Part shown: positions 227-14,214 of the stretch, piece by piece | Layout: every line of letters starts with the position of its first letter | Numbering within the stretch: the first letter of the stretch is position 1 | From: Acidiferrobacterales bacterium | GTDB taxonomy: Bacteria > Pseudomonadota > Gammaproteobacteria > Arenicellales > JAJDZL01 | Assembly: GCA_028820695.1 (NCBI GenBank) | Contig: JAPPIB010000045.1 | Coordinates: forward strand, 1 to 64,000 | DNA: 64,000 bases | Direction: 5' to 3' | The notes under the pieces: generated by a model | The model's database searches: none | What the model was told of the DNA's origin: nothing | What the model saw: only the letters and a program-made list of their open reading frames with translations | Position numbers and translations under genes: made by a program

Positions 227-1012
227 TCAGTCGATCAACGAAAGCGATTCGGTATTTCCATCGACTGACAACGCCTGTCCGCTGATCTTCGCACCTCGCT
301 TCGAACAGATGAAAAGGGCCATCTGTGCAATGTCCTCGGCCTCTACAAAACTCTTCAACGAAATCTGACTGACAAACTGTTCGCGGACTTTGCTCTGATC
401 GACTCCTCTGGTTTTGGCCTCATCGTCAATCACACGATCCATTCTCGCACCTGACACGGGGCCCGGACAGATGGCGTTGACCCGAATTCCATATCCGCCG
501 ACTTCCATTGCCAGAGATTTGGTCAATCCAATGATGCCCCACTTTGCAGATGCATAAGGTGTCCGTAAAGGATACCCGTGGGTGCCGGCGGTCGAGGACA
601 AATTGACAATCGAACCGCTGCGTCGTTCCTTCATTGCCGGCAAAGCCTGACGACAGCACAGGAATGTGCTGATCAGATTGACTCGCAAAGTGTCCAGCCA
701 CGACTGCAATGGCAAAGTTTCCAGAGGCCCGTTCGGACCGGATATCCCGGCATTGTTGATGAGAATATCCAGCTTGCCGTCAGTTTCGTTCCGGAGCGCA
801 ACGAAGAGGTCATCAACTTCCTGTTCAGAACCTGCATCGGCGACTTGGCCGCGAATTTTGCGACCACTTGCATTCAATTCGTCAATTCGGTCCCTGTCAA
901 TGTCGCACACCCATACCATCGCGCCTGCAGCTTCGAATGCATGTGCAATCGTATAGCCGATACCTGAGCCACCCCCGGTAACCAATACGTTTTTCCCTTC
1001 CAGGCTGTTCAT
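227..1012 (-). CDS. SDR-family NAD(P)-dependent oxidoreductase
   Basis: A 261-residue classical short-chain dehydrogenase, the usual length. The cofactor loop TGGGSGIG is at residues 12-19, an acidic residue (Asp37) after the second strand favours NAD over NADP, NNAG is at 86-89, and the catalytic Ser140, Tyr153 and Lys157 are all present. It should oxidise or reduce an alcohol/carbonyl pair; the substrate cannot be read from sequence. The ATG has a purine-rich ribosome site (AGGAGATAGGGG) just upstream. It is the last gene of a three-gene operon, 16 bp after the ferredoxin reductase, which suggests it acts on the same compound as the OYE and reductase. Confidence 0.93.
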   Translation of the reverse strand: MNSLEGKNVLVTGGGSGIGYTIAHAFEAAGAMVWVCDIDRDRIDELNASGRKIRGQVADAGSEQEVDDLFVALRNETDGKLDILINNAGISGPNGPLETLPLQSWLDTLRVNLISTFLCCRQALPAMKERRSGSIVNLSSTAGTHGYPLRTPYASAKWGIIGLTKSLAMEVGGYGIRVNAICPGPVSGARMDRVIDDEAKTRGVDQSKVREQFVSQISLKSFVEAEDIAQMALFICSKRGAKISGQALSVDGNTESLSLID

Positions 1013-1028
1013 CGGTTTCCCCTATCTC

Positions 1029-2321
1029 CTAGATGTCGAGTATCAGTCGATCCTCTCCCGCCGCAGCGCGGGATATACATACCATCATCAGACTGTCATG
1101 AGATTTTTCAGTTTCTGTCAGTACTGAATCACGATGCTCCACATTTCCAAACAAGACCTTGGTGCGGCAAGTTCCGCACAGTCCTTCGGTACAGGAAAAA
1201 TCGGTTGTAATATCCTGCGCCCGCAGTGCGTCAAGTATGCTTTGGTCCTGCATTACCCTGATTGTTGTCTGCCGCCTGGCCAACACCACCTCAAACTCAC
1301 TGTTCACCCAGTCGTCTGACGGTGCCTGTCGAAACTTCTCAGTATGGACGGAATCATCAGGCCAGGTCTTTGCCGCTGATCTCGCATCCGCCATCAATTG
1401 ACTCGGTCCGCAGATGTATAAGTGCGCTCCCTCGGGTCGTTTTGACAGAACATCTTCCAATGGAATGCCCTGCTGTGGATCGCCGTCGTCGTAGTGAACT
1501 GTCAGACAGTCTCTGGCAACGTTCTGAATCTCATCGATGAATGCAGCCTCGAGCCGATTGCGCTCACAATAATGAACCTCATACGCGGCCCCGATTGAAT
1601 TGAGTCGATGACACATGCTCAGGATCGGTGCGACACCAATCCCACCTGCAATCAACAGATGATACGGTGCGGATTCATTCAGGCTGAAGTTGTTCTTCGG
1701 ATAGCCGGACTCGATGCTGGCACCAGGGCGAACAGTTTCATGAATCCACTCGGAGCCGCCGCGGCTGTTGCTGTCCCTCAGCACTCCAATCACATACCGA
1801 TGTCGTTCAGAAGGATCATTGATCATCGAATAGGATCGCCGCTCGTCTCCTGCACCGACTATCAGGTCGATATGCGAACCTGCGATAAACTCCGGAAGTT
1901 CCCTTCCCTGCTCACCTTGCAGTTCAATTCTCAATGTGTCTTCGGTAGTTGGCTCGATACTCGACACTTTCAGTTTCAACCGTTGAAAACCAACCGAGTC
2001 CGGGAACTTCTGCCCATCTCTCAACATCAATCGGCTGACCGGCTGACCATGAACGATGTGACTGTCAAGTATCTCATCAATATCCGACTCACTTTCGTAG
2101 TGGTACCAAACGCCGTCAGGATAGATCACCATCGTGGGACCGAGTTCACAACGCTCGAGACAGCCGGAATTGTTGACACGGACATCATCAATACCGAGTT
2201 GCTTTGCGCGTCGTTTCATATATTCGCGCAACTCGACCGAGCCTCGTGCTTTGCAACAACTCCTCGGATGATCCGCTACGCGCTCGTTAACGCAGCAAAA
2301 AATGTGTTTTCTGTAGTGCAA
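1029..2321 (-). CDS. Fusion reductase: Trx-like [2Fe-2S] ferredoxin, FNR/PDR core, plant-type [2Fe-2S] ferredoxin
   Basis: This 430-residue protein has three parts. Residues 1-90 form a thioredoxin-like ferredoxin, with cysteines at 9/10 and 22/23 and the signature GCLERCELGP at 53-62. Residues 110-325 are a phthalate-dioxygenase-reductase type flavin/NAD module (RSYSM near 162; GGIGVAPILS near 226; CGP near 304). Residues 345-430 are a plant-type ferredoxin with Cys377, Cys382, Cys385 and Cys415. Such proteins pass electrons from NAD(P)H to a partner enzyme. The start is TTG with AGAGG six bases upstream, inside the end of the OYE gene, so the two are translationally linked. No oxygenase is encoded beside it, which is unusual for this reductase type; the electron acceptor is therefore unknown. 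Confidence 0.9.
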   Translation of the reverse strand: MHYRKHIFCCVNERVADHPRSCCKARGSVELREYMKRRAKQLGIDDVRVNNSGCLERCELGPTMVIYPDGVWYHYESESDIDEILDSHIVHGQPVSRLMLRDGQKFPDSVGFQRLKLKVSSIEPTTEDTLRIELQGEQGRELPEFIAGSHIDLIVGAGDERRSYSMINDPSERHRYVIGVLRDSNSRGGSEWIHETVRPGASIESGYPKNNFSLNESAPYHLLIAGGIGVAPILSMCHRLNSIGAAYEVHYCERNRLEAAFIDEIQNVARDCLTVHYDDGDPQQGIPLEDVLSKRPEGAHLYICGPSQLMADARSAAKTWPDDSVHTEKFRQAPSDDWVNSEFEVVLARRQTTIRVMQDQSILDALRAQDITTDFSCTEGLCGTCRTKVLFGNVEHRDSVLTETEKSHDSLMMVCISRAAAGEDRLILDI

Positions 2322-2330
2322 TCTGACCTC

Positions 2331-3422
2331 TTACTGATATGAAATGGGTTTGCATCTGAGATATTGGCTTGGATATCCAATATCTACGCCCAACCGGTCC
2401 GCCGCATGCCAGGGCCAACGTGGATTGTAGAGCATGCCTCTTGCCAGCGCGACGATATCCGCATCGCCATTCGCAATGATTGAGTTGGCGTGTTCGGCTT
2501 CCGTGATCAAGCCCACAGCAATCGTGGCAATTCCCGCACGTTGTCGAACCGCACGCGACAGATGCACCTGATAACCGGGCCCGGATGTAATGTCTTGATG
2601 CAACGATATGCCACCACTTGAAACATCGATCCAGTCGCAGCCGAGATCTTTCAGTTTCCTTGCAAATTCTACCGTATCGTCTAAACTCCAGCCGCCTTCA
2701 ATCCAATCGGTAGCGGATACTCTTACACCGATAGGCTTGTCATTCGGCCACACATGCCGCACCGATTCGAACACACTCAGTGGAAATCGCATACGGTTTT
2801 GAACAGAACCACCATAACGATCCTTTCGCAAATTTGACACAGGCGACAGAAACTGGTGAAGAAGGTACCCGTGTGCGGCGTGCAACTCGATCGCATCAAA
2901 TCCAATTCGCTGGGCGCGCTCGGCCGAACTGGCAAAGGCCTCAATCAAAACCGTCACTTCTGCTTGGGAGAGCGCCTCGGGCTGATGTGCGGTCTCATCG
3001 GCCGCAATTGCTGACGGGCCTACCGGTTGCCAACCGCCCTGCTCGGGAGGTACGTAGTGCCGGCCCTCCCAAGGAGGCCCGGTCGAAGCCTTTCTACCCG
3101 CATGGGCAAGTTGTACACCGATGGGAACATCGCCGTAGTTTGTGCAGAAATCCACCACTTTGCGCAACGCCTTCTCATTGTCATCACTGTAAAGGCCCAC
3201 ACAGTGGGGGCTGATTCTGCCACGCGCCTCGACGTTTGTCATTTCAGTAAACATAAGGCCGGCACCACTGATGGAAAACTGTCCCAAGTGCATCATATGC
3301 CAGTCTGATACGCAACCATCAACGGACGAATATTGACACATGGGCGAAACCATGATGCGGTTGCCCAGTTCGAGCTGACGAAAGGAGATGGGGGAAAACA
3401 GCGCGGGTAAAGACTTGCTCAA
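2331..3422 (-). CDS. Old-yellow-enzyme NADH:flavin oxidoreductase (YqjM type)
   Basis: A 363-residue FMN TIM-barrel ene-reductase. Features of the YqjM subgroup are visible: PMCQYS with Cys29 and Tyr31 near the N-terminus, and the substrate-binding histidines in HAAH at 181-184 followed by GYLLHQFLSP. The family reduces activated C=C bonds or, in relatives, demethylates or oxidises amines. The start is TTG with AAGGA upstream. It is the first gene of the minus-strand operon, 9 bp before the ferredoxin reductase, and is divergent from the inositol-monophosphatase-family gene across a 119-bp gap that must carry both promoters. Its substrate is unknown. Confidence 0.93.
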   Translation of the reverse strand: MSKSLPALFSPISFRQLELGNRIMVSPMCQYSSVDGCVSDWHMMHLGQFSISGAGLMFTEMTNVEARGRISPHCVGLYSDDNEKALRKVVDFCTNYGDVPIGVQLAHAGRKASTGPPWEGRHYVPPEQGGWQPVGPSAIAADETAHQPEALSQAEVTVLIEAFASSAERAQRIGFDAIELHAAHGYLLHQFLSPVSNLRKDRYGGSVQNRMRFPLSVFESVRHVWPNDKPIGVRVSATDWIEGGWSLDDTVEFARKLKDLGCDWIDVSSGGISLHQDITSGPGYQVHLSRAVRQRAGIATIAVGLITEAEHANSIIANGDADIVALARGMLYNPRWPWHAADRLGVDIGYPSQYLRCKPISYQ

Positions 3423-4401: not shown

Positions 4402-5358
4402 TCATACCTTAAACGCCATCTGTCGGCGAATTCGTTCCCGCCATGCAGTCAGGACGCCAGCAGTCGCGATCAGAGTCATCCCGATGACACCATTGGTTGT
4501 GGGCAATGTATCAAATAGAGCCTTACCCCAGAATGCGGCAAACAGAAGGTAACTGAAATCCAGTGGGACGAGCCAGCTGCTTTCAGCCGTCTGGTACGCC
4601 CTGCTCAGACATATGTTGCCGATCAGATTGAGTACCGACGTGACGACTGCCAATCCTAACACGACCATTGCCAGTGTCGGCCATCCGGTAAATACGAAAG
4701 GTGCACGTTGCTGCAATGTCACAGGCAGGGGGAATATTGAAAGCAGCACACTGCCGAGTATTCCGGAGACCAGAAAGGCAACTGCAACGGCGAAAACCAT
4801 CGCCAACGTGTTTTCCCACCTGCAGGCGCGACGTATGGTGAGAATGTTCAAGGCGTAGAAAAAACCCGCAAGGACTGGAAGGCATTGCACGAGTGTGAAT
4901 CCCTCTTCCCAGGGAGAGAGCGCAAGAGCCGTGCCACCAAATCCGAGAACGACGGCACCGAATCGCCAGCGTCCTACCTGCTCGCCCAGCACTGGTCCCG
5001 CCAAGATGGATACAAACAGAGGATAGGTATACAAGCCAGCTGCCATCTGGGTCAGGGTCAGATAAGGCGCGCCGCCAAAGAAACAGAACATGCAAAAGGT
5101 CATCAATAAGGCACGAAAGTAGACTGCGCCTGCTCTTCGAGGAATCAGCAGGTACAATCCACCACCTCCCAATGCCAATAGGACGGCGAAGGTGAAATTG
5201 CCGGCGGCTCTCAGCGCTTGGAACTGCCAGTATGATGTCTGAGATGAGATGTCCTTGAACAACGCATCTTGCAAGGCAAGAACAAAAACACCAATGAGCA
5301 GCAGCGAAAGTGCTGTGATTGGACGGTCACGCGTTGGATGGCCAAAAAGTGAACGCAT
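4402..5358 (-). CDS. EamA/DMT-superfamily transporter
   Basis: A 318-residue, strongly hydrophobic protein with about ten predicted membrane spans in two EamA repeats, the architecture of drug/metabolite exporters. It opens with LSLLLIGVFVLALQDALFK, and the first repeat contains the usual helix pair with a charged loop (LGEQVGRWRFGAVVLGF). It lies 62 bp downstream of the DmdA-like gene on the same strand and may be the last gene of that catabolic operon, exporting or importing its substrate or a by-product; that role is inference. It converges on the phosphatase gene with only about 50 bp between them. Confidence 0.9.
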   Translation of the reverse strand: MRSLFGHPTRDRPITALSLLLIGVFVLALQDALFKDISSQTSYWQFQALRAAGNFTFAVLLALGGGGLYLLIPRRAGAVYFRALLMTFCMFCFFGGAPYLTLTQMAAGLYTYPLFVSILAGPVLGEQVGRWRFGAVVLGFGGTALALSPWEEGFTLVQCLPVLAGFFYALNILTIRRACRWENTLAMVFAVAVAFLVSGILGSVLLSIFPLPVTLQQRAPFVFTGWPTLAMVVLGLAVVTSVLNLIGNICLSRAYQTAESSWLVPLDFSYLLFAAFWGKALFDTLPTTNGVIGMTLIATAGVLTAWRERIRRQMAFKV

Positions 5359-5420
5359 AAGGCTTGGATTGATCCATGCGGAATTATGCGAGACTTGCTT
5401 CCGGTCTGGGAGGCAGTTCT

Positions 5421-6533
5421 TCAGGCGAAGGGTAGAGCCGAAACCTCGCCCTTACGAGCGACGCCATCTGTGCTGTGCACGATCACCTTCTGTCCTGTAC
5501 TCCAGAATTCCCTTTCAATCAGCGACAGGCCGACATTTCTTTCAAGACGCGGAGACCACACAGCACTTGTGATCTGGCCGATCTGACGAGTGCCTGCATG
5601 AACCGGCCACGGCTCGGTACAGGTGGGACAGGGACCACCATCAAAAAGGATGCCGCGGATCTGACGCTCTATGTCATGCTCGCAGAGCATTTGCAAGGCA
5701 TCGCGACTGAGACAATCCACAGTGCCGTTCAGATTGCAAAGCCTGCCCATTCCGAATTCAAAAGGATTGTGTTCACGAGTCATCTCATTTCCATATGACA
5801 GAAATCCGCCCTCAATGCGATCGATCAGGTTGGGGTAACCCGGTGCGATCGCATAGGGCTGCCCCGCCTGCCAGACGGCGTCCCAAAGGGCGGAGCCCAA
5901 ACGACTGTCATTCAGGAATATCTCGAAGCCGCCCTGCCTGGAATATCCGGTGCGAGCGATCAATTGCTGTGTACCGCTGAAGTCGACCCACCCGAATCTG
6001 AAAAACCCGATGTCGCGGATGTGGTCCCCGAACAGGTCGCAGACCAAAGACTCGGCCTTGGGTCCCTGCACCGCCAAAGGTGACACATCCGGCTCGCTGA
6101 CTGTCACGTCAAACTTCCGTCCCAGCGCAAGCCCTTTTGCGAAAAGCAGCAGGTCGGAGTCCGCAACCGATAGCCAGAACCGGTCATCTGAAAGTTTCAG
6201 CAAAATCGGATCATTGATCATACCGCCCGTCTCATCGGTTATTGGAAGATAGAGACAATCGCCGGTCTTTGCGTGTGAGATGTCACGCGGAGTCATCCAC
6301 TGAACAAGTTTCTCGGCATCGCGTCCTGTGATCTGCACCTGACGCTGGCAGGCGACGTCCCAGATTTGCACGTGCTCGCGCAGGTGCCAGTAGTCCTCTT
6401 CGATCGTACGGCCATATGAAGTGGGCAAAAGCATGTGGTTGACGACGGAAAAGGCAGTGACGCCAGCAGCCTCGACCGAAGCTGTATATGGCGTGCGGCG
6501 CAATCGGCGGGAAAACCTAAGCCCCTCAGCCAT
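5421..6533 (-). CDS. DmdA-like aminomethyltransferase-family demethylase
   Basis: A 370-residue member of the GcvT/dimethylglycine-dehydrogenase C-terminal superfamily, which moves a one-carbon unit to tetrahydrofolate. The sequence follows the DMSP demethylase DmdA closely from memory: RTPYTASVEAAGV at the start, LLPTSYGRTIEEDYWHLREH, SRQGGFEIF in the middle, and NLIDRIEGGFLSYG. Length also fits DmdA (about 369). No gcvH or gcvP is nearby, so ordinary glycine-cleavage T protein is unlikely. DmdA paralogues of unproven activity are known, so I leave the symbol off. It overlaps the upstream transthyretin-like gene by 8 bp, which ties it to an FMN dehydrogenase and a ThDP enzyme rather than to DmdBCD. 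Its methyl donor might therefore be an S-, O- or N-methylated hydroxy acid. Confidence 0.8.
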   Translation of the reverse strand: MAEGLRFSRRLRRTPYTASVEAAGVTAFSVVNHMLLPTSYGRTIEEDYWHLREHVQIWDVACQRQVQITGRDAEKLVQWMTPRDISHAKTGDCLYLPITDETGGMINDPILLKLSDDRFWLSVADSDLLLFAKGLALGRKFDVTVSEPDVSPLAVQGPKAESLVCDLFGDHIRDIGFFRFGWVDFSGTQQLIARTGYSRQGGFEIFLNDSRLGSALWDAVWQAGQPYAIAPGYPNLIDRIEGGFLSYGNEMTREHNPFEFGMGRLCNLNGTVDCLSRDALQMLCEHDIERQIRGILFDGGPCPTCTEPWPVHAGTRQIGQITSAVWSPRLERNVGLSLIEREFWSTGQKVIVHSTDGVARKGEVSALPFA

Positions 6534-6876
6534 GCTCGGTGGAACTCCACAGGGAATAACCGTGCGGCGACAGGATCAGCGGAATGTGATAGTACCCATC
6601 AGGATCGGGCATGGTGAAACGGACGACAATCTCGTCCACGATACGCGCACCGCAGGTGCCTGCACTGCGACCCTCCCAATAGACTCCGGTCAAAAAAACC
6701 AGTTCGTAGCGAGCTTTCGGATCAGGCACTCCAATCTTCTGCTTCAGACGTCCGCTGTCGTCCATCCTGGTGTCAAATATGATCTGCCCCGAATCAAGAT
6801 TGACCAGCCGTATCGGGATTCCGCCCGCGTGACTGCCGTCGACACCATTGAGTGTATGGGAGGAGACAACCGCCAT
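6526..6876 (-). CDS. Transthyretin-like protein (HIU-hydrolase fold, divergent C-terminus)
   Basis: A 116-residue transthyretin-like protein. The family N-terminal strand with its histidine (SSHTLNGVDG) and the C-terminal signature YHIPLILSPHGYS are both present. In 5-hydroxyisourate hydrolase the chain ends in the catalytic YRGS motif; here it ends WSSTEHG, so hydroxyisourate is probably not the substrate. No other purine-catabolic gene is nearby. I start at the ATG that overlaps the stop of the ThDP gene (TGATG); a GTG one codon earlier is the alternative. The gene is sandwiched by overlaps between the ThDP enzyme and the DmdA-like gene, so it is expected to hydrolyse or carry an intermediate of that pathway. 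Confidence 0.8.
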   Translation of the reverse strand: MAVVSSHTLNGVDGSHAGGIPIRLVNLDSGQIIFDTRMDDSGRLKQKIGVPDPKARYELVFLTGVYWEGRSAGTCGARIVDEIVVRFTMPDPDGYYHIPLILSPHGYSLWSSTEHG

Positions 6877-8606
6877 CACTCAATCGATGCCTTGTCGCGT
6901 TTGTCCGATGTTGCCGCTACAATGGGAGAAATCACCCCGCGGCACTTGACGTTCACACAAGCCGTCTTGCCTGATGCCATTGCTCGCCGCAATGCAGGAC
7001 CAAGTTCCGCACGGCTGTTTACCAATTCGCCATGTCCACCGAGCCCCTCGAACATGGAGTGAAAGGGAATATCACGGAAATCGGTGGCAAAGTGACTGCC
7101 ATTGTCAAAGAGGCGTTCCTGTTGCTGACTGATGCAGTCGAGCCCGCCGTTGTTGTCGATGACAACAGTGATCGGCAGCCCTTCCTGAAATGCAGTCTCG
7201 ATTGACAGTCCCCCAGACAGGTATGCGCCATCGCCGGAGATCACCACAACATTGCTGTCTGGGTGTGTGATCTTGGCTGTAATGCCGAAACTGACTCCGA
7301 CACCCAGTAGCGAATAGTTGCCCGGGTGCATTATTCCGCCAAGTTTCTTCCCGCGCCAGCCGGCCATGTTCACGGCAATTTCGCTCCAGAAGTGCGTATT
7401 GCCACCGTCGAAAATCAACCAATCGTCTGCGGACAGTTCTGACTGCACATCGAGGGCGAGCTGCAGCGGATGCATCTTTCCGCCCGCAGTTTCATCATTG
7501 GCACTTTCTTCAGCGATATGCGTCTCCCAATCGGCAACCCACGAGGAGCGGCGCTCGGTCTGAAGGTCGAACCAGGGTTTGAAGGTTCGACCAATGCCGG
7601 AGAGGGCATCCAAAAACGTACCGGGGTCCGACAGCAGTACCTCATCCGCAGCATAGTTGTTATCGAGTTCTTCTGACGAGCCGTTCACGCAGATCAGCCT
7701 GGTTTCCTTGCGAAAAAAAGGCGGATTGCCAAAGTTCATCTGGTTGTCGAGCCGTCCACCGACCATCACTACAACATCCGCTTCGTGGATTGCGGGCTTC
7801 GATGGGTGGTACTGATGAAAGTCAGCAAGTCCCATGTAGGGTATGCTGCCCTCGTCGAGAAGCTTGGTGTGGTAGGGTACGTTGAATATCGGCATCTGCA
7901 AAACTTGCCCCATGAAGTCAAGTTTGTCCTCTGCGCCAGACCACCAGACTCCATGACCGCCGATCACAATCGGCCGTTCAGCGTTGCGGATGATGCCTAA
8001 GAGGCGATCGAGTTCGGTCGGATTGGGCCAAGCGCGCGGAGTTGGGCGCACACCGCGAATCCACGGCCGGTCGTCACAGCCCGCGTTCTCATCAAACGAC
8101 GAGAACATGATGTCGACCGGCAAGCTGACGTGTACCGGCCCTGGATACCCGGTCGTCGCAGCCTGCCATGCACGATCGACAAATTCCCTGATGCGTTCGC
8201 CGTCAGTAATCTGAACGGAATACTTCACCAGCGGTGCGGCAATTGCAACATCGTCAATTTCCTTGAAACCACCCGCACCCTGCCGCTTGAGTGTTGACGA
8301 TCCGGTGACAAATATCACTGGCGAACGTTCGCCGCCCGCCTCCAGCATAGCGGGTACGGCATTTGCAAATCCCTCGGGTCCAACCAGGCACACTGACGGC
8401 TTTCGGGTAATGCGTGTGTATCCGTCAGCCAGATGCCCCGCAACCTGTTCGTGGGGACAGTTGATCACCGGGATTCGGCATTCCATGAATCCCTCAAGGG
8501 CCGGATTGCAAAAGCCGCCTGCGAGAGTAAATACCTGATCCACCCCCTTGTCAGTCAGCGCACGGGCTAGCAACGCGCCGCCGCGAATCTGCCTGTCCTG
8601 TCTCAT
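6876..8606 (-). CDS. Thiamine-diphosphate-dependent 2-oxoacid enzyme (acetolactate synthase/decarboxylase superfamily)
   Basis: A 576-residue protein with the three-domain layout of pyruvate-oxidase-type ThDP enzymes: a PYR domain with the activating glutamate at PHEQ (His52, Glu53), a central domain near 195-340, and a PP domain with the ThDP/Mg motif starting GDG (458-460) and ending NN (485-486). Relatives include acetolactate synthase, benzoylformate decarboxylase, oxalyl-CoA decarboxylase and sulfoacetaldehyde acetyltransferase; I cannot place it in one of these. It follows an FMN 2-hydroxyacid dehydrogenase by 18 bp, a pairing that recalls mandelate degradation (hydroxyacid to oxoacid to aldehyde plus CO2), so a decarboxylase or lyase acting on the dehydrogenase product is the simplest reading. 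Confidence 0.88.
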   Translation of the reverse strand: MRQDRQIRGGALLARALTDKGVDQVFTLAGGFCNPALEGFMECRIPVINCPHEQVAGHLADGYTRITRKPSVCLVGPEGFANAVPAMLEAGGERSPVIFVTGSSTLKRQGAGGFKEIDDVAIAAPLVKYSVQITDGERIREFVDRAWQAATTGYPGPVHVSLPVDIMFSSFDENAGCDDRPWIRGVRPTPRAWPNPTELDRLLGIIRNAERPIVIGGHGVWWSGAEDKLDFMGQVLQMPIFNVPYHTKLLDEGSIPYMGLADFHQYHPSKPAIHEADVVVMVGGRLDNQMNFGNPPFFRKETRLICVNGSSEELDNNYAADEVLLSDPGTFLDALSGIGRTFKPWFDLQTERRSSWVADWETHIAEESANDETAGGKMHPLQLALDVQSELSADDWLIFDGGNTHFWSEIAVNMAGWRGKKLGGIMHPGNYSLLGVGVSFGITAKITHPDSNVVVISGDGAYLSGGLSIETAFQEGLPITVVIDNNGGLDCISQQQERLFDNGSHFATDFRDIPFHSMFEGLGGHGELVNSRAELGPALRRAMASGKTACVNVKCRGVISPIVAATSDKRDKASIE

Positions 8607-8624
8607 GCCGAGGCTAATCTATCT

Positions 8625-9809
8625 TCAATTTCTGATCGCCACTGCGAGCGGGCGCGACTGATCTGGTTTCCCATCACTCGTGTCGCGGTCAGGTTCAAAT
8701 ACGACGCCTGACCATAGTTCACCCGTCGAGCTAACCCCAAGCTGAGCGATTGCGGAGTCCAGGTCCTTGGTAAAACAATCGAAGAGCGACGAAAGACCGT
8801 TTGCGCCAGCGGCTCCCAAGGCGAACAGAATCGGGCGTCCGAGCATGACAAAATCCGCACCGAGTGCAAGAGCCTTGACCACGTCCTCACCGTTGCGGAC
8901 ACCGCTGTCAAAAAGCAGCGGTATATCGGTGCCAAGGGCATCACGAACTCTTGGAAGAAGATCGATTGACGCCGGCACACTATCCAATTGCCGGCCCCCA
9001 TGATTTGAAACATACACGGCATCGACACCCCCGTCCCGGGCGCGAATCGCATCCCACGGACCGGTAATCCCCTTGACGATGAGGTGTCCCTTCCATTTTC
9101 TTCGCAACTTGGCGAGGAATTCCCAATCTGCTCCTGCCCGGCTGGCATCGCGAACAAAACTGTCGCCTGGGCCGATGTTTTTCGGAGAGGGGATGCCCGC
9201 TACGAGGGTAGACAGAGTCCAGCGCGGGTGTGACGCAAAATCAAGGAAGGATGTCACGGTCAGATGAAAGGGTACATTGAATCCATTTCGCTGATCGCGA
9301 ACTCGTCGCGATACCTGCGGAACATCGACAGTCACCACCAAGGTATCGTAACCGGCACTGGCAGCACGATCCACTGCAGCCAGCGTTGACTCCTCGGATT
9401 GTCCGAAGTACAGTTGAAACCAAGCGCAGGACCCGGCCCACTCGCGCATCTCTTCGAGTGTACTTGACGCAGCGGAAGACACGCATACCGGCATGGAAAT
9501 ACGTGAGGCCGTCTCGGCGAGAATTCGATCTGCACCCGGACAGACCAGATTGCACATTCCCATCGGTGCGATTCCGAACGGAACGCCGAACTTCTGTCCC
9601 AGGAACTGTGTCACCAGACTGCGGGAAGCGACATTCTCCATGACACGCGGCTGCAGGCAGATATCGTCAAACCGCGCCTCATTTCGTTGCATTCCAACCT
9701 CTCTGCCTGCGGCGCCATCGATAAAATCGAACACCAGACGCGGCAATCTTTGTTTCGCCATTCGGCGCGCATCTTCGGTTGAATACAATCTGGTTCGAGT
9801 CGTCGACAT
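8625..9809 (-). CDS. FMN-dependent alpha-hydroxy acid dehydrogenase/oxidase
   Basis: A 394-residue TIM-barrel flavoprotein of the glycolate oxidase, L-lactate dehydrogenase (LldD) and mandelate dehydrogenase family. The FMN-binding Lys is at about 246 (LIVKGI), the catalytic-base His270 sits in SNHGGRQLD, and phosphate-binding DSGVRNGEDVVKALALGA lies at 301-318 with GRP at 324-326. It should oxidise an L-2-hydroxy acid to the 2-oxo acid, passing electrons to the quinone pool or to oxygen. It is the first gene of the minus-strand catabolic operon. The ATG is unambiguous. The substrate is not lactate by context, because the next gene is a ThDP enzyme and a demethylase is downstream. Confidence 0.92.
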   Translation of the reverse strand: MSTTRTRLYSTEDARRMAKQRLPRLVFDFIDGAAGREVGMQRNEARFDDICLQPRVMENVASRSLVTQFLGQKFGVPFGIAPMGMCNLVCPGADRILAETASRISMPVCVSSAASSTLEEMREWAGSCAWFQLYFGQSEESTLAAVDRAASAGYDTLVVTVDVPQVSRRVRDQRNGFNVPFHLTVTSFLDFASHPRWTLSTLVAGIPSPKNIGPGDSFVRDASRAGADWEFLAKLRRKWKGHLIVKGITGPWDAIRARDGGVDAVYVSNHGGRQLDSVPASIDLLPRVRDALGTDIPLLFDSGVRNGEDVVKALALGADFVMLGRPILFALGAAGANGLSSLFDCFTKDLDSAIAQLGVSSTGELWSGVVFEPDRDTSDGKPDQSRPLAVAIRN

Positions 9810-12611: not shown

Positions 12612-12830
12612 TCAGTGAGGAAATTCAACCGGTATCGACAACCAAAACGTTCCTTCAACTTTGTCTTCAAATTCAAGTGAGCAATCGCATGATACTTGGA
12701 CATCGATTCGATTCAAAATTGTTTGGTCACCGCCCCAGCAGATGACGACTGTACCGGTCAGTTCGTTGTAAGCAAAATCACATTCAAATTTCCTGTGAAT
12801 ATACTCATTGCAGATTGCTGGTGTTTCAGG
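12612..12830 (-). other. Protein-like open frame without a standard start, downstream of the BrnT/XRE pair
   Basis: Seventy-two sense codons run from just inside the end of the antitoxin gene to a TGA at 12612. They read, for example, KFECDFAYNELTGTVVICWG and end TFWLSIPVEFPH. No ATG, GTG or TTG is near its beginning; the first possible TTG would leave only about 30 residues. It could be the distal part of a decayed third gene, or chance. I do not recognise a family. Confidence 0.25.
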
Positions 12831-13161
12831 TCAGCACACGAAGTGCTGTTTCCGGTGCTTTGTCGAGTATTCGTAACAAGGCGCGAGCGGCACCTGCCGG
12901 ATAGCGCTTGCCCTGTTCCCAATTGCGGATTGTTTCCGGAGACACGTCGATACGCCGTGCCATTTCTATCTGACTGAGGCCCATCCGTCGTCGGATGCGG
13001 CGCGTATAACGCGCCATGTTCTGCAAATCCTCAATCTCATCTTCCTGTTCCTGCAATGTGATTTGCGCTTCCGTGGTCGCGTCTACCATCGCAAAGTCAA
13101 TTTGTCCTTTGGGAATTGTCGAAGGATCGCCTGGATCAATCTTGATACGTATTGTGCTCAT
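12826..13161 (-). CDS. XRE-family antitoxin paired with BrnT-type toxin
   Basis: A 111-residue DNA-binding protein. Residues 1-55 are an acidic, strand- and coil-forming toxin-contacting region; residues 57-105 form a helix-turn-helix (RRRMGLSQIEMARRIDVSPE then TIRNWEQGKRYP). I start at the ATG at 13161 because it has an excellent AAGGAGG site eight or nine bases upstream; an in-frame upstream ATG would lie inside the toxin gene. It overlaps the toxin gene by 26 bp. BrnT normally pairs with the ribbon-helix-helix antitoxin BrnA, so an XRE partner is a variant arrangement. It probably binds the palindrome in the promoter at 13427-13443. Confidence 0.85.
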   Translation of the reverse strand: MSTIRIKIDPGDPSTIPKGQIDFAMVDATTEAQITLQEQEDEIEDLQNMARYTRRIRRRMGLSQIEMARRIDVSPETIRNWEQGKRYPAGAARALLRILDKAPETALRVLT

Positions 13162-13417
13162 AGCATATAACCTCCTTTCGACTGGCCTTACGGGCCGAGA
13201 TGATGCGAATAACTGGTCCGCGCACCGTGTAAACGACAACATAGGTCTGTTCGTCAATCATGTCGAGCAACCGGTAGCGACTTTCACCATAATCACGCCG
13301 CTCATCTTGAACAACAACTCGATGAGGATCGAAGAAAGCGCGTACAGCATAGGCGAAGCCGAAGCCGCGACGCTCGACACAGATATTGCTTTTTGTACCG
13401 TCCCATTCAAACTCCAT
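13136..13417 (-). CDS. brnT: BrnT-family ribonuclease toxin
   Basis: A 93-residue protein of the BrnT (DUF497) family, a RelE-fold ribonuclease toxin. The typical beginning MEFEWDGTKSN, the central VVVQDERRDYGESRYRLLDM and the active-site strand VVYTVRGPVIRIISARKASR match the family from start to end. The start at 13417 is set by the family N-terminus; no Shine-Dalgarno precedes it. The mapped -10 box ends only seven bases upstream, which predicts a leaderless message. The antitoxin gene follows with a 26-bp overlap. An in-frame frame extends upstream but that part is not BrnT-like. Confidence 0.88.
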   Translation of the reverse strand: MEFEWDGTKSNICVERRGFGFAYAVRAFFDPHRVVVQDERRDYGESRYRLLDMIDEQTYVVVYTVRGPVIRIISARKASRKEVICYEHNTYQD

Positions 13418-13423
13418 TCTTAA

Positions 13424-13452
13424 AGCATAGGCCAATGGCCTATACTTGTCAA
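13424..13452 (-). promoter_or_regulatory. brnT promoter with palindromic operator in the spacer
   Basis: On the minus strand a consensus -35 TTGACA (13452-13447) is followed by a 17-bp spacer and a -10 TATGCT (13429-13424). The perfect inverted repeat ATAGGCCAATGGCCTAT (13427-13443) fills the spacer and runs into the -10. That is the classic geometry for autorepression by the antitoxin. The ATG of brnT begins seven bases beyond the -10, at the expected transcription start. Confidence 0.75.
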
Positions 13453-13586
13453 ATTGTGATTTCCGGATTGATGTGAGCTTGAATGAACTCGATTGGCCAC
13501 CGGCAGGATTCCTCAGCGCAGCCAGATTGCCCGGCCTAGTTAATGCCAGAGGGTACGCGGTGAGGCCATGAATTTGCTGATCACAA

Positions 13587-14214
13587 GACCAGCAAGGAGC
13601 TGAACTGGTCCGTGAAGACCGGTGCCTAGCGAACTTTATTGAATTCATTGCCGATGGTGCAAAAGCAATGCTGTGAGTAAAGCGTTGGAAGATACAGAAA
13701 AACGAGTCAACGCACTCCAAGTGGGATTGGAGGGTTTACGAAACGCCAGAAATAGACTCTTTGAAACCCCACCAAGGGAATGAATTGAGGCGAAATTCGA
13801 GAATGTAAAAAGTCTGTAAAAAAGGCAATTCTTCTCAAGCAGGTGAAGCACTGAGAGAGTTCTTGGGGCCGGCCAACCCTTGAAGCAATATATCCAGATA
13901 TTGGCAAACCATACTTTGTTGCCAGGAGTTCAATCAATACAATCGCCCATCTCCAAAAAGCGTCGCATGGAAGAGATGCGGACGAAGGTTCGACTACGTT
14001 ACGTTGGTGGACCTGGACGGTAAGAATCCGTACCATTATCGCAATTCCTATCCAATGTGCAGTCATTGGTACCAGACAAGCTCCGATTTACCAACATATT
14101 GCCAAGAAAGCTCTCCATCTTAAAGAACTCGGATTGAGTAACAGCAAAATTGCCAAACACCTTAATGTCAATGACAAAATCATTGCCAAAGCATTGAATT
14201 GCATCAACGAATGA
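13587..14214 (+). pseudogene. Decayed large serine recombinase C-terminus (copy B, most complete)
   Basis: Reading across frames gives a long recombinase-like tail: NFIEFIADGAKAML, then KALEDTEKRVNALQVGLEGL, NRLFETPPRE-IEAKF, EALREFLGPANP, PTLEAIYPDIGKPYFVARSS, DADEGSTTLRWW, and a final helix-turn-helix (LKELGLSNSKIAKHLNVNDK) ending in TGA at 14212-14214. It is broken by a TGA and frameshift at 13674-13676, a TGA at 13781-13783 exactly where family members have the Trp of PPREW, and further frame changes before 13880. No catalytic resolvase domain is left. The assignment to serine recombinases is from remembered family tails; the gene is certainly not functional. Confidence 0.6.

Follow-up and report, generated by a model that had tools for sequence, protein, structure and literature searches.

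The described systems closest to the locus analyzed here are DMSP demethylation, in which DmdA, DmdB, DmdC and DmdD act in series and are followed by MtoX; the mandelate pathway, represented by MdlB and MdlC; the enzymes 2-hydroxyacyl-CoA lyase (HACL) and oxalyl-CoA decarboxylase (OXC); and 5-hydroxyisourate hydrolase (HIUase/PucM). Genes with likeness to each of these stand together in one minus-strand operon of the window (the whole stretch of DNA that was analyzed, 64,000 nucleotides of contig JAPPIB010000045.1 from an Acidiferrobacterales bacterium). The operon is conserved, and undescribed, in marine bacteria of many lineages; as the original prediction had it, no described pathway combining the four families was found in the literature searched.

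Gene organization and conservation

The first gene of the operon (8625..9809, minus strand) encodes an FMN-dependent L-2-hydroxy-acid dehydrogenase of LldD/mandelate-dehydrogenase type. It is followed on the same strand by genes for a ThDP-dependent lyase/decarboxylase from a sharply bounded family with TPP_enzyme N, M and C domains (6876..8606), a transthyretin (TTR)/5-hydroxyisourate-hydrolase-like protein (6526..6876 from its ATG, with a GTG start possible at 6879; PF00576), and a DmdA-sister protein of GcvT fold that is presumably a tetrahydrofolate-dependent demethylase (5421..6533; GCV_T and GCV_T_C domains, PF01571/PF08669; NF009133). A gap of 18 bp separates the dehydrogenase and ThDP genes, the ThDP stop and TTR start overlap in TGATG, and the TTR and DmdA-like genes overlap by 8 bp; an EamA/DMT transporter gene (4402..5358, minus strand; PF00892, E=3.8e-9) lies 62 bp downstream of the DmdA-like gene. 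Open reading frames and family profiles confirm all of the gene families and spacings originally reported. The transporter gene has a homologue at none of the other loci when 116 ThDP loci are compared, and was for this reason ruled out as a member of the unit. At three loci (L139, L140 and L159) a different EamA gene is found upstream of the FMN dehydrogenase gene.

The search of other genomes that the original prediction called for shows the operon to be conserved: the four genes occur in the same order and on the same strand at 79 of the 116 ThDP loci, and at a further 15 only the FMN gene is absent. The arrangement ranges over Alpha- and Gammaproteobacteria, with ThDP identity down to ~63%; below about this value no ThDP relative passed E 1e-130 in wide class and phylum scans, and no better-characterized distant context was found. 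Pairwise identities of the four proteins correlate across 65 loci with r of 0.70-0.87, a level reached in 0 of 500 permutations. The gene arrangement is far beyond chance, and the four proteins are co-inherited.

Proposed route and neighboring genes

Judged from sequence and gene context, the operon could well serve to break down a 2-hydroxy acid with an onium-type methylation. Most likely this is a dimethylsulfonio compound, with 4-dimethylsulfonio-2-hydroxybutyrate (DMSHB) as leading candidate; this assignment is tentative. That the substrate is a sulfonium appears probable, and that it is DMSHB itself is rather doubtful. The original prediction had allowed the methyl group to be on S, O or N; its 2-hydroxy-acid logic is retained here, and phylogeny and neighboring genes narrow the position to sulfur as the most likely. 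DMSHB is a real metabolite; Zarconia navalis contains 111-335-fold more of it than of DMSP (PMC11306096). In the order of steps that we infer, the DmdA-sister enzyme would move one methyl to tetrahydrofolate, giving for example 4-methylthio-2-hydroxybutyrate; oxidation of the L-2-hydroxy acid by the FMN enzyme would yield a 2-oxo acid, which the ThDP enzyme would then cleave or decarboxylate; and the transthyretin-like protein would hydrolyze what the ThDP enzyme produces, or an adduct of that product. In some genomes an acyl-CoA dehydrogenase (ACAD), an enoyl-CoA hydratase (ECH), a thiolase and a methanethiol-oxidase-family protein might complete the breakdown of the carbon chain and of the methanethiol set free. 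Two features count against the DMSHB scheme: a hydrolase is not obviously needed at any step, and the ThDP enzyme is closer to lyases than it is to decarboxylases of 2-oxo acids.

Within the flanks examined, genes for SBP56 occur at 8 of the 116 loci, for ACAD at 12, for ECH at 10 and for BktB thiolase at 9. In bacteria SBP56 acts as a methanethiol oxidase (PMC5739008; PMC10936201); it is usually present in 1-2 copies per genome, and by a rough estimate, the loci being related, ~0.5-0.8 would be expected by chance where 8 are seen. The SBP56/ACAD/ECH module belongs to a minority of loci and is not near the operon of the window, whose genome carries its SBP56 gene on another contig. Full beta-oxidation genes (HADH and BktB) adjoin the operon at L079, where a longer acid would fit better than methylthiopropionate, a further point against the DMSHB scheme. 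Transporters vary among loci (TRAP, Dpp-ABC, TctABC) and a LysR regulator is nearby, which fits catabolism. Homarine and purine/methylxanthine routes were also considered and dropped, neither genes nor papers supporting them.

The alternative that survives best places the methyl on nitrogen, such that a betaine-type (quaternary ammonium) 2-hydroxy or 2-oxo acid would lose a methyl to the DmdA-sister enzyme before being oxidized and cleaved; we regard it as rather unlikely. MttB-type methyltransferase genes are present at 16 of the 116 loci, together with PepE, PanE and Dpp transporters, and MttB proteins of the same family remove methyl groups from quaternary amines, for example glycine betaine (PMC12478193). 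One locus (L161) has carnitine 3-dehydrogenase and BKACE genes alongside genes that were assigned by eye as FolD, Fhs and sarcosine-oxidase-like. These MttB and carnitine genes, and a homocysteine S-methyltransferase gene near the operon at L143, mean that quaternary amines fit too; the last of these had been considered as a sulfonium clue and was dropped because it occurs at that single locus. However, MttB is itself a demethylase, so that its presence says nothing about the substrate of the DmdA-like protein; the nearest characterized relatives of that protein are sulfonium demethylases, and the methanethiol-oxidase-family module lies near several loci.

The dehydrogenase, ThDP enzyme and transthyretin-like protein

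The FMN dehydrogenase matches PF01070 strongly (E=1.5e-117, 393 bits), and its best NCBIfam model, PRK11197 LldD, scores 256.9 bits, under the cut-off of 376; catalytic His270 and Arg273 are invariant in 83 relatives. In the ThDP protein Glu53, Lys115 (GGFKEID) and the GDG and DNN motifs are conserved in 116 relatives, and a C-terminal DKRDKASIE is nearly so. Its closest solved structures, by sequence and by fold, are HACL and OXC, then benzaldehyde lyase (BAL), and benzoylformate decarboxylase is absent from its best 60 sequence matches and its best 50 fold matches. The 2-hydroxy-acid/ThDP logic of the original prediction is supported; since the protein is nearer to HACL, OXC and BAL than to benzoylformate decarboxylase, decarboxylation is here a presumed activity. 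The TTR protein matches PF00576 (E=1.5e-15) and scores 59.4 bits with TIGR02962, under the cut-off of 87.45. The HIUase residues H8, R44 and H98 (numbering from the GTG) are conserved in ~96 relatives; the C-terminal YRGS is replaced by YSxWxS (YSLWSS in the window).

ThDP–TTR occurs without both the FMN and DmdA-like genes at 7 of the 116 loci and with the FMN gene only at 8. That TTR follows ThDP even when the other two genes are missing suggests that the TTR step belongs to the ThDP chemistry, and it lends weight to a second alternative, less probable than the first, in which ThDP–TTR is the true core, a HACL-like carboligase or 2-hydroxyacyl lyase making or splitting a C-C bond, with the FMN and DmdA-like enzymes only feeding it and with no mandelate-type decarboxylation. 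The structural matches to HACL, OXC and BAL favor such a core, as do GlcD genes in place of FMN near ThDP at L032 and L053, and SAR116 loci (L059, L061) at which ThDP–TTR adjoins genes for PhyH dioxygenases (Pfam) and formate-dehydrogenase-like proteins. The ThDP protein nevertheless misses the NCBIfam cut-offs for HACL (227.3 of 600 bits) and OXC (194.4 of 557 bits), and the FMN dehydrogenase gene stands beside the ThDP gene at 87 of the 116 loci, which predicts a free 2-oxo acid.

The DmdA-like protein

Databases label the DmdA-like gene of the operon, probably wrongly, as a DMSP demethylase. The protein scores 526.5 bits with the NCBI DmdA model NF009133 (cut-off 410), from which it takes its label, and it is 43% identical to P. 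ubique DmdA (3tfh), a closeness similar to that between canonical roseobacter DmdA and the P. ubique protein. Both facts would suit a usual DMSP demethylation locus whose neighbors are unrelated to it but inherited along with it; this reading is improbable in light of phylogeny, residues and context. The operon proteins are monophyletic (support 100/97), as is canonical DmdA (100/99), defined as the clade with dmdA-acuI or dmdA-CoA ligase context. The operon clade adjoins canonical DmdA and P. ubique DmdA, making a DMSP-demethylase-like ancestor likely; the P. ubique protein may be placed with canonical DmdA (p-AU 0.278) or with the operon clade (p-AU 0.359). The two kinds of protein occur together in at least 10 genomes, and where acuI or a CoA ligase gene adjoins dmdA in several canonical copies, the operon has its conserved FMN–ThDP–TTR genes.

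Position 32 is Val in 86/86 operon proteins vs Tyr in 12/12 sequences drawn from canonical DmdA, P. ubique and the third group, and position 250 is Glu in 86/86 vs the Asp common to those same groups; the corresponding residues of the window's protein are V31 and E250, both of which lie in low-confidence loops of an AlphaFold model. E63Q and K49W are nearly fixed in the operon clade. Folate-site Glu204 is kept, and Asn107 (GGMINDP) is present as in DmdA, where the genome's own GcvT has the catalytic Asp (GGILDDL). W197 (W171 in the alignment numbering of PMC7487153, by our mapping) was dropped as a marker of DMSP specificity, as canonical-context DmdA also has Tyr there. Because it forms its own clade, co-occurs with DmdA and carries the fixed substitutions Y32V and D250E, the protein is, on sequence grounds, a DmdA relative and not a canonical DMSP demethylase. 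The original prediction of a DmdA-related demethylase is supported by this phylogeny, in which the protein falls beside the proven DMSP demethylases and not within them, with neighbors that are conserved.

A biosynthetic role, in which the FMN, ThDP and TTR proteins would convert DMSHB to DMSP and the DmdA-like protein would serve another purpose, has in its favor that the DMSHB decarboxylase has not been identified in some DMSP/DMSHB producers (PMC11306096) and that a Labrenzia locus (L065) has two ThDP–TTR copies without the operon DmdA, but it is very improbable given the uptake transporters and LysR regulator at many loci, which suggest catabolism, and a demethylase in the same operon that would undo the product.

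Discussion

A second DmdA clade, probably separate in function, that passes the NCBI model means that model-based dmdA counts may include genes of another pathway. Carriers of the operon probably consume a methylated compound of sulfur (or nitrogen) that is not DMSP. The ThDP–TTR pair, in which a relative of hydroxyisourate hydrolase is coupled to a ThDP enzyme, looks to be new enzymology. Should DMSHB be the substrate, the operon would drain a sulfonium whose levels in some microbes exceed those of DMSP, and it would be an additional oceanic source of methanethiol. The broadest form of the sulfonium reading, possible but on the unlikely side, is a widespread and undescribed marine route for DMSHB or a similar sulfonium 2-hydroxy acid, in which a neofunctionalized paralogue of DmdA would demethylate the substrate, with an FMN dehydrogenase and a novel ThDP/TTR-like enzyme pair as its partners, and which would release methanethiol in parallel to DMSP demethylation.

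Comparison with known systems shows how each component is shared and how it departs. The DmdA-like protein has the GcvT fold, the Asn in place of the GcvT Asp, Glu204 and a score above the NF009133 cut-off in common with DmdA (P. ubique 3tfh; roseobacter dmdA-acuI), whereas it belongs to a sister clade with Y32V and D250E fixed, is encoded in another operon and coexists with true DmdA. As in DMSP demethylation there is a demethylase and, at some loci, an acyl-CoA dehydrogenase, an enoyl-CoA hydratase and an SBP56 protein; unlike that pathway, 2-hydroxy-acid oxidation and a ThDP step come first, a CoA-ligase-type gene is present at few loci, and the enoyl-CoA hydratase belongs to PRK08139. The mandelate pathway (MdlB and MdlC) likewise uses an FMN 2-hydroxy-acid dehydrogenase and then a ThDP enzyme, but in the operon the latter is nearer to HACL, OXC and BAL, and the set also includes a methyltransferase and a hydrolase. 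HACL and OXC, although closest in structure, are only ~26% identical to the ThDP protein, which misses their model cut-offs and has Lys115 vs Gln (FQE) in the closest HACL. Finally, the operon TTR keeps the catalytic His-Arg-His of HIUase/PucM, but it is without the YRGS tail, has no purine genes noticed beside it, and is tied instead to a ThDP enzyme.

Organization and conservation of the operon

Four minus-strand genes encode an FMN-dependent 2-hydroxy-acid dehydrogenase (FMN-dh; 8625–9809), a ThDP enzyme (6876–8606), a transthyretin-like protein (TTR; 6526–6876) and a DmdA-like demethylase (5421–6533), followed on the same strand by an EamA/DMT transporter gene (4402–5358); 18 bp separate FMN-dh from ThDP, ThDP and TTR overlap in a TGATG, TTR and the DmdA-like gene overlap by 8 bp, and 62 bp lie before the transporter gene. 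ORF coordinates, with all five families assigned by Pfam and NCBIfam, matched the original prediction in every gene position, family, gap and overlap. At 227–3422 the minus strand encodes an SDR, a reductase with a ferredoxin domain and a flavin oxidoreductase of the OYE family, set apart from the operon side by a plus-strand inositol-phosphatase-family gene; in three other loci (L139, L140, L159) an OYE, SDR and EamA trio adjoins the operon and differs from the window's set. A small minus-strand gene pair (12826–13720) has a BrnT/BrnA-type toxin-antitoxin look by eye only.

Scanning the ThDP protein against genome contigs yielded 527 relatives, 80 of whose loci were examined; a further 36 from whole genomes bring the set to 116 loci, a few of them truncated where their contig stops and a few being duplicates of a locus already in the set. 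The same four-family neighborhood recurs in full (FMN-dh, ThDP, TTR and DmdA-like on one strand, order kept) in 79 of the 116, as the original prediction had proposed to look for, the others being ThDP-TTR-DmdA (15), FMN-ThDP-TTR (8), ThDP-TTR only (7) and ThDP without partners (7), and the four proteins co-diverge (r 0.70–0.87). The operon is real and conserved and, as far as the literature searched goes, undescribed; the DMT gene, sought across the 116 loci, is not conserved.

The edge of the ThDP family is sharp: full-length matches go no lower than ~63–64% identity, and a search of 385 genomes from one class plus 398 from the phylum turned up no more distant relative at E 1e-130. The patchy presence of the operon ThDP in the window's own genus (2 of 6 genomes), together with relatives in Rhodobacteraceae, suggests horizontal spread of the family. 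One Rhodobacteraceae-like operon (L043) is on a contig titled Sulfurimonas, where mis-binning is probable.

The FMN-dh, ThDP and TTR proteins

The FMN-dh is of the LldD/mandelate-dehydrogenase type, with its catalytic His270 and Arg273 invariant. By sequence and fold, ThDP is nearest to 2-hydroxyacyl-CoA lyase (HACL)/oxalyl-CoA decarboxylase and benzaldehyde lyase, and it falls short of every curated cut-off for these enzymes; unlike the closest HACL, which has Gln at that site, all ThDP relatives (116/116) carry Lys115. TTR has in common with hydroxyisourate hydrolase (HIUase) the catalytic His-Arg-His residues, whereas the YRGS tail, a hallmark of HIUase, is absent. Since TTR stays next to ThDP even in loci without DmdA and FMN, the TTR step is most likely part of the ThDP chemistry.

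Neighboring genes and proposed route

Transporters vary between loci (TRAP, Dpp-type ABC, TctABC), and a LysR gene is nearby in 51 of 116. Two modules recur, one of SBP56, ferredoxin, CoA-binding protein, enoyl-CoA hydratase, acyl-CoA dehydrogenase and BktB thiolase, the other of MttB, PanE, FAH, Ldh2 and PepE. In L064 (13166–19284) and similar loci the MttB methyltransferase, PanE, FAH hydrolase, Ldh2, PepE peptidase and a Dpp transporter adjoin the operon. Bacterial SBP56 proteins include methanethiol oxidases (PMC5739008; PMC10936201); the SBP56 of L085 scores only 158 on the MtoX equivalog (cut-off 650). Among the loci without DmdA, some encode a dehydrogenase of the GlcD type where FMN-dh would stand (L032, which adds a TauD dioxygenase, and L053). 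A SAR116 variant without DmdA (L059, 8357–16991; L061, 1646–10279) comprises two PhyH dioxygenases, ThDP and TTR, with an NTF2-like protein and formate-dehydrogenase-like genes.

The neighbor modules and variants, taken with the DmdA ancestry of the demethylase, favor a sulfonium 2-hydroxy acid as the probable substrate; a quaternary amine would be the less probable alternative. The sulfonium 2-hydroxy acid would be demethylated first, the demethylated 2-hydroxy acid would then be oxidized, and cleavage by ThDP/TTR would come last. One candidate that fits structurally is 4-dimethylsulfonio-2-hydroxybutyrate, which some microbes accumulate (PMC11306096).

The demethylase compared with DmdA

At 526 bits the DmdA-like protein lies above the cut-off of the NCBI DmdA model (410), and is thus annotated as a DMSP demethylase; its identity to P. 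ubique DmdA is only 43%. Above-cut-off proteins in the 19 genomes searched form two classes, of ~580–700 and ~526–579 bits, which occur together in at least 10 of these genomes, and the former adjoins acuI or an acyl-CoA ligase wherever its flank is visible. Maximum-likelihood analysis recovered each class as monophyletic, the operon class with 34 sequences at a support of 100/97 and the canonical class with 12 at 100/99, so that the phylogenetic placement called for by the original prediction sets the protein in a clade of its own, apart from canonical DmdA; P. ubique DmdA may group with either class.

Two substitutions, Tyr32 to Val and Asp250 to Glu, are fixed in the operon class (86/86 each), and Glu63 to Gln and Lys49 to Trp are near-fixed. 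The Asn that replaces the catalytic Asp of GcvT is kept. The AlphaFold model best matches the P. ubique DmdA structure (3tfh, TM 0.92), with low-confidence stretches at residues 31–35 and 248–267. By the tests made, the operon demethylase is a sister of DmdA and not DmdA.

The window's own genome, a 2.77-Mb draft in which the window is contig 45, has 20 GCV_T domain matches, many in multi-domain proteins of ~800–1000 residues, and a second, sub-cut-off DmdA-related protein (357 bits; G000:C10:25431-26450, L147 ~8354–9763) adjoined, as read by eye, by putative leuC/leuD and a polyketide-synthase-like gene. The operon DmdA of L143 and, in L130 (1459–3937), a DmdA-like gene of a third group (377 bits) both precede genes for an OsmC-like protein and an enoyl-CoA hydratase.

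Canonical DmdA, whose dmdA-acuI arrangement in roseobacters was already known (PMC3338564), has acuI or an acyl-CoA ligase as its neighbor in the copies whose flank is visible, whereas the operon DmdA has FMN-ThDP-TTR instead.
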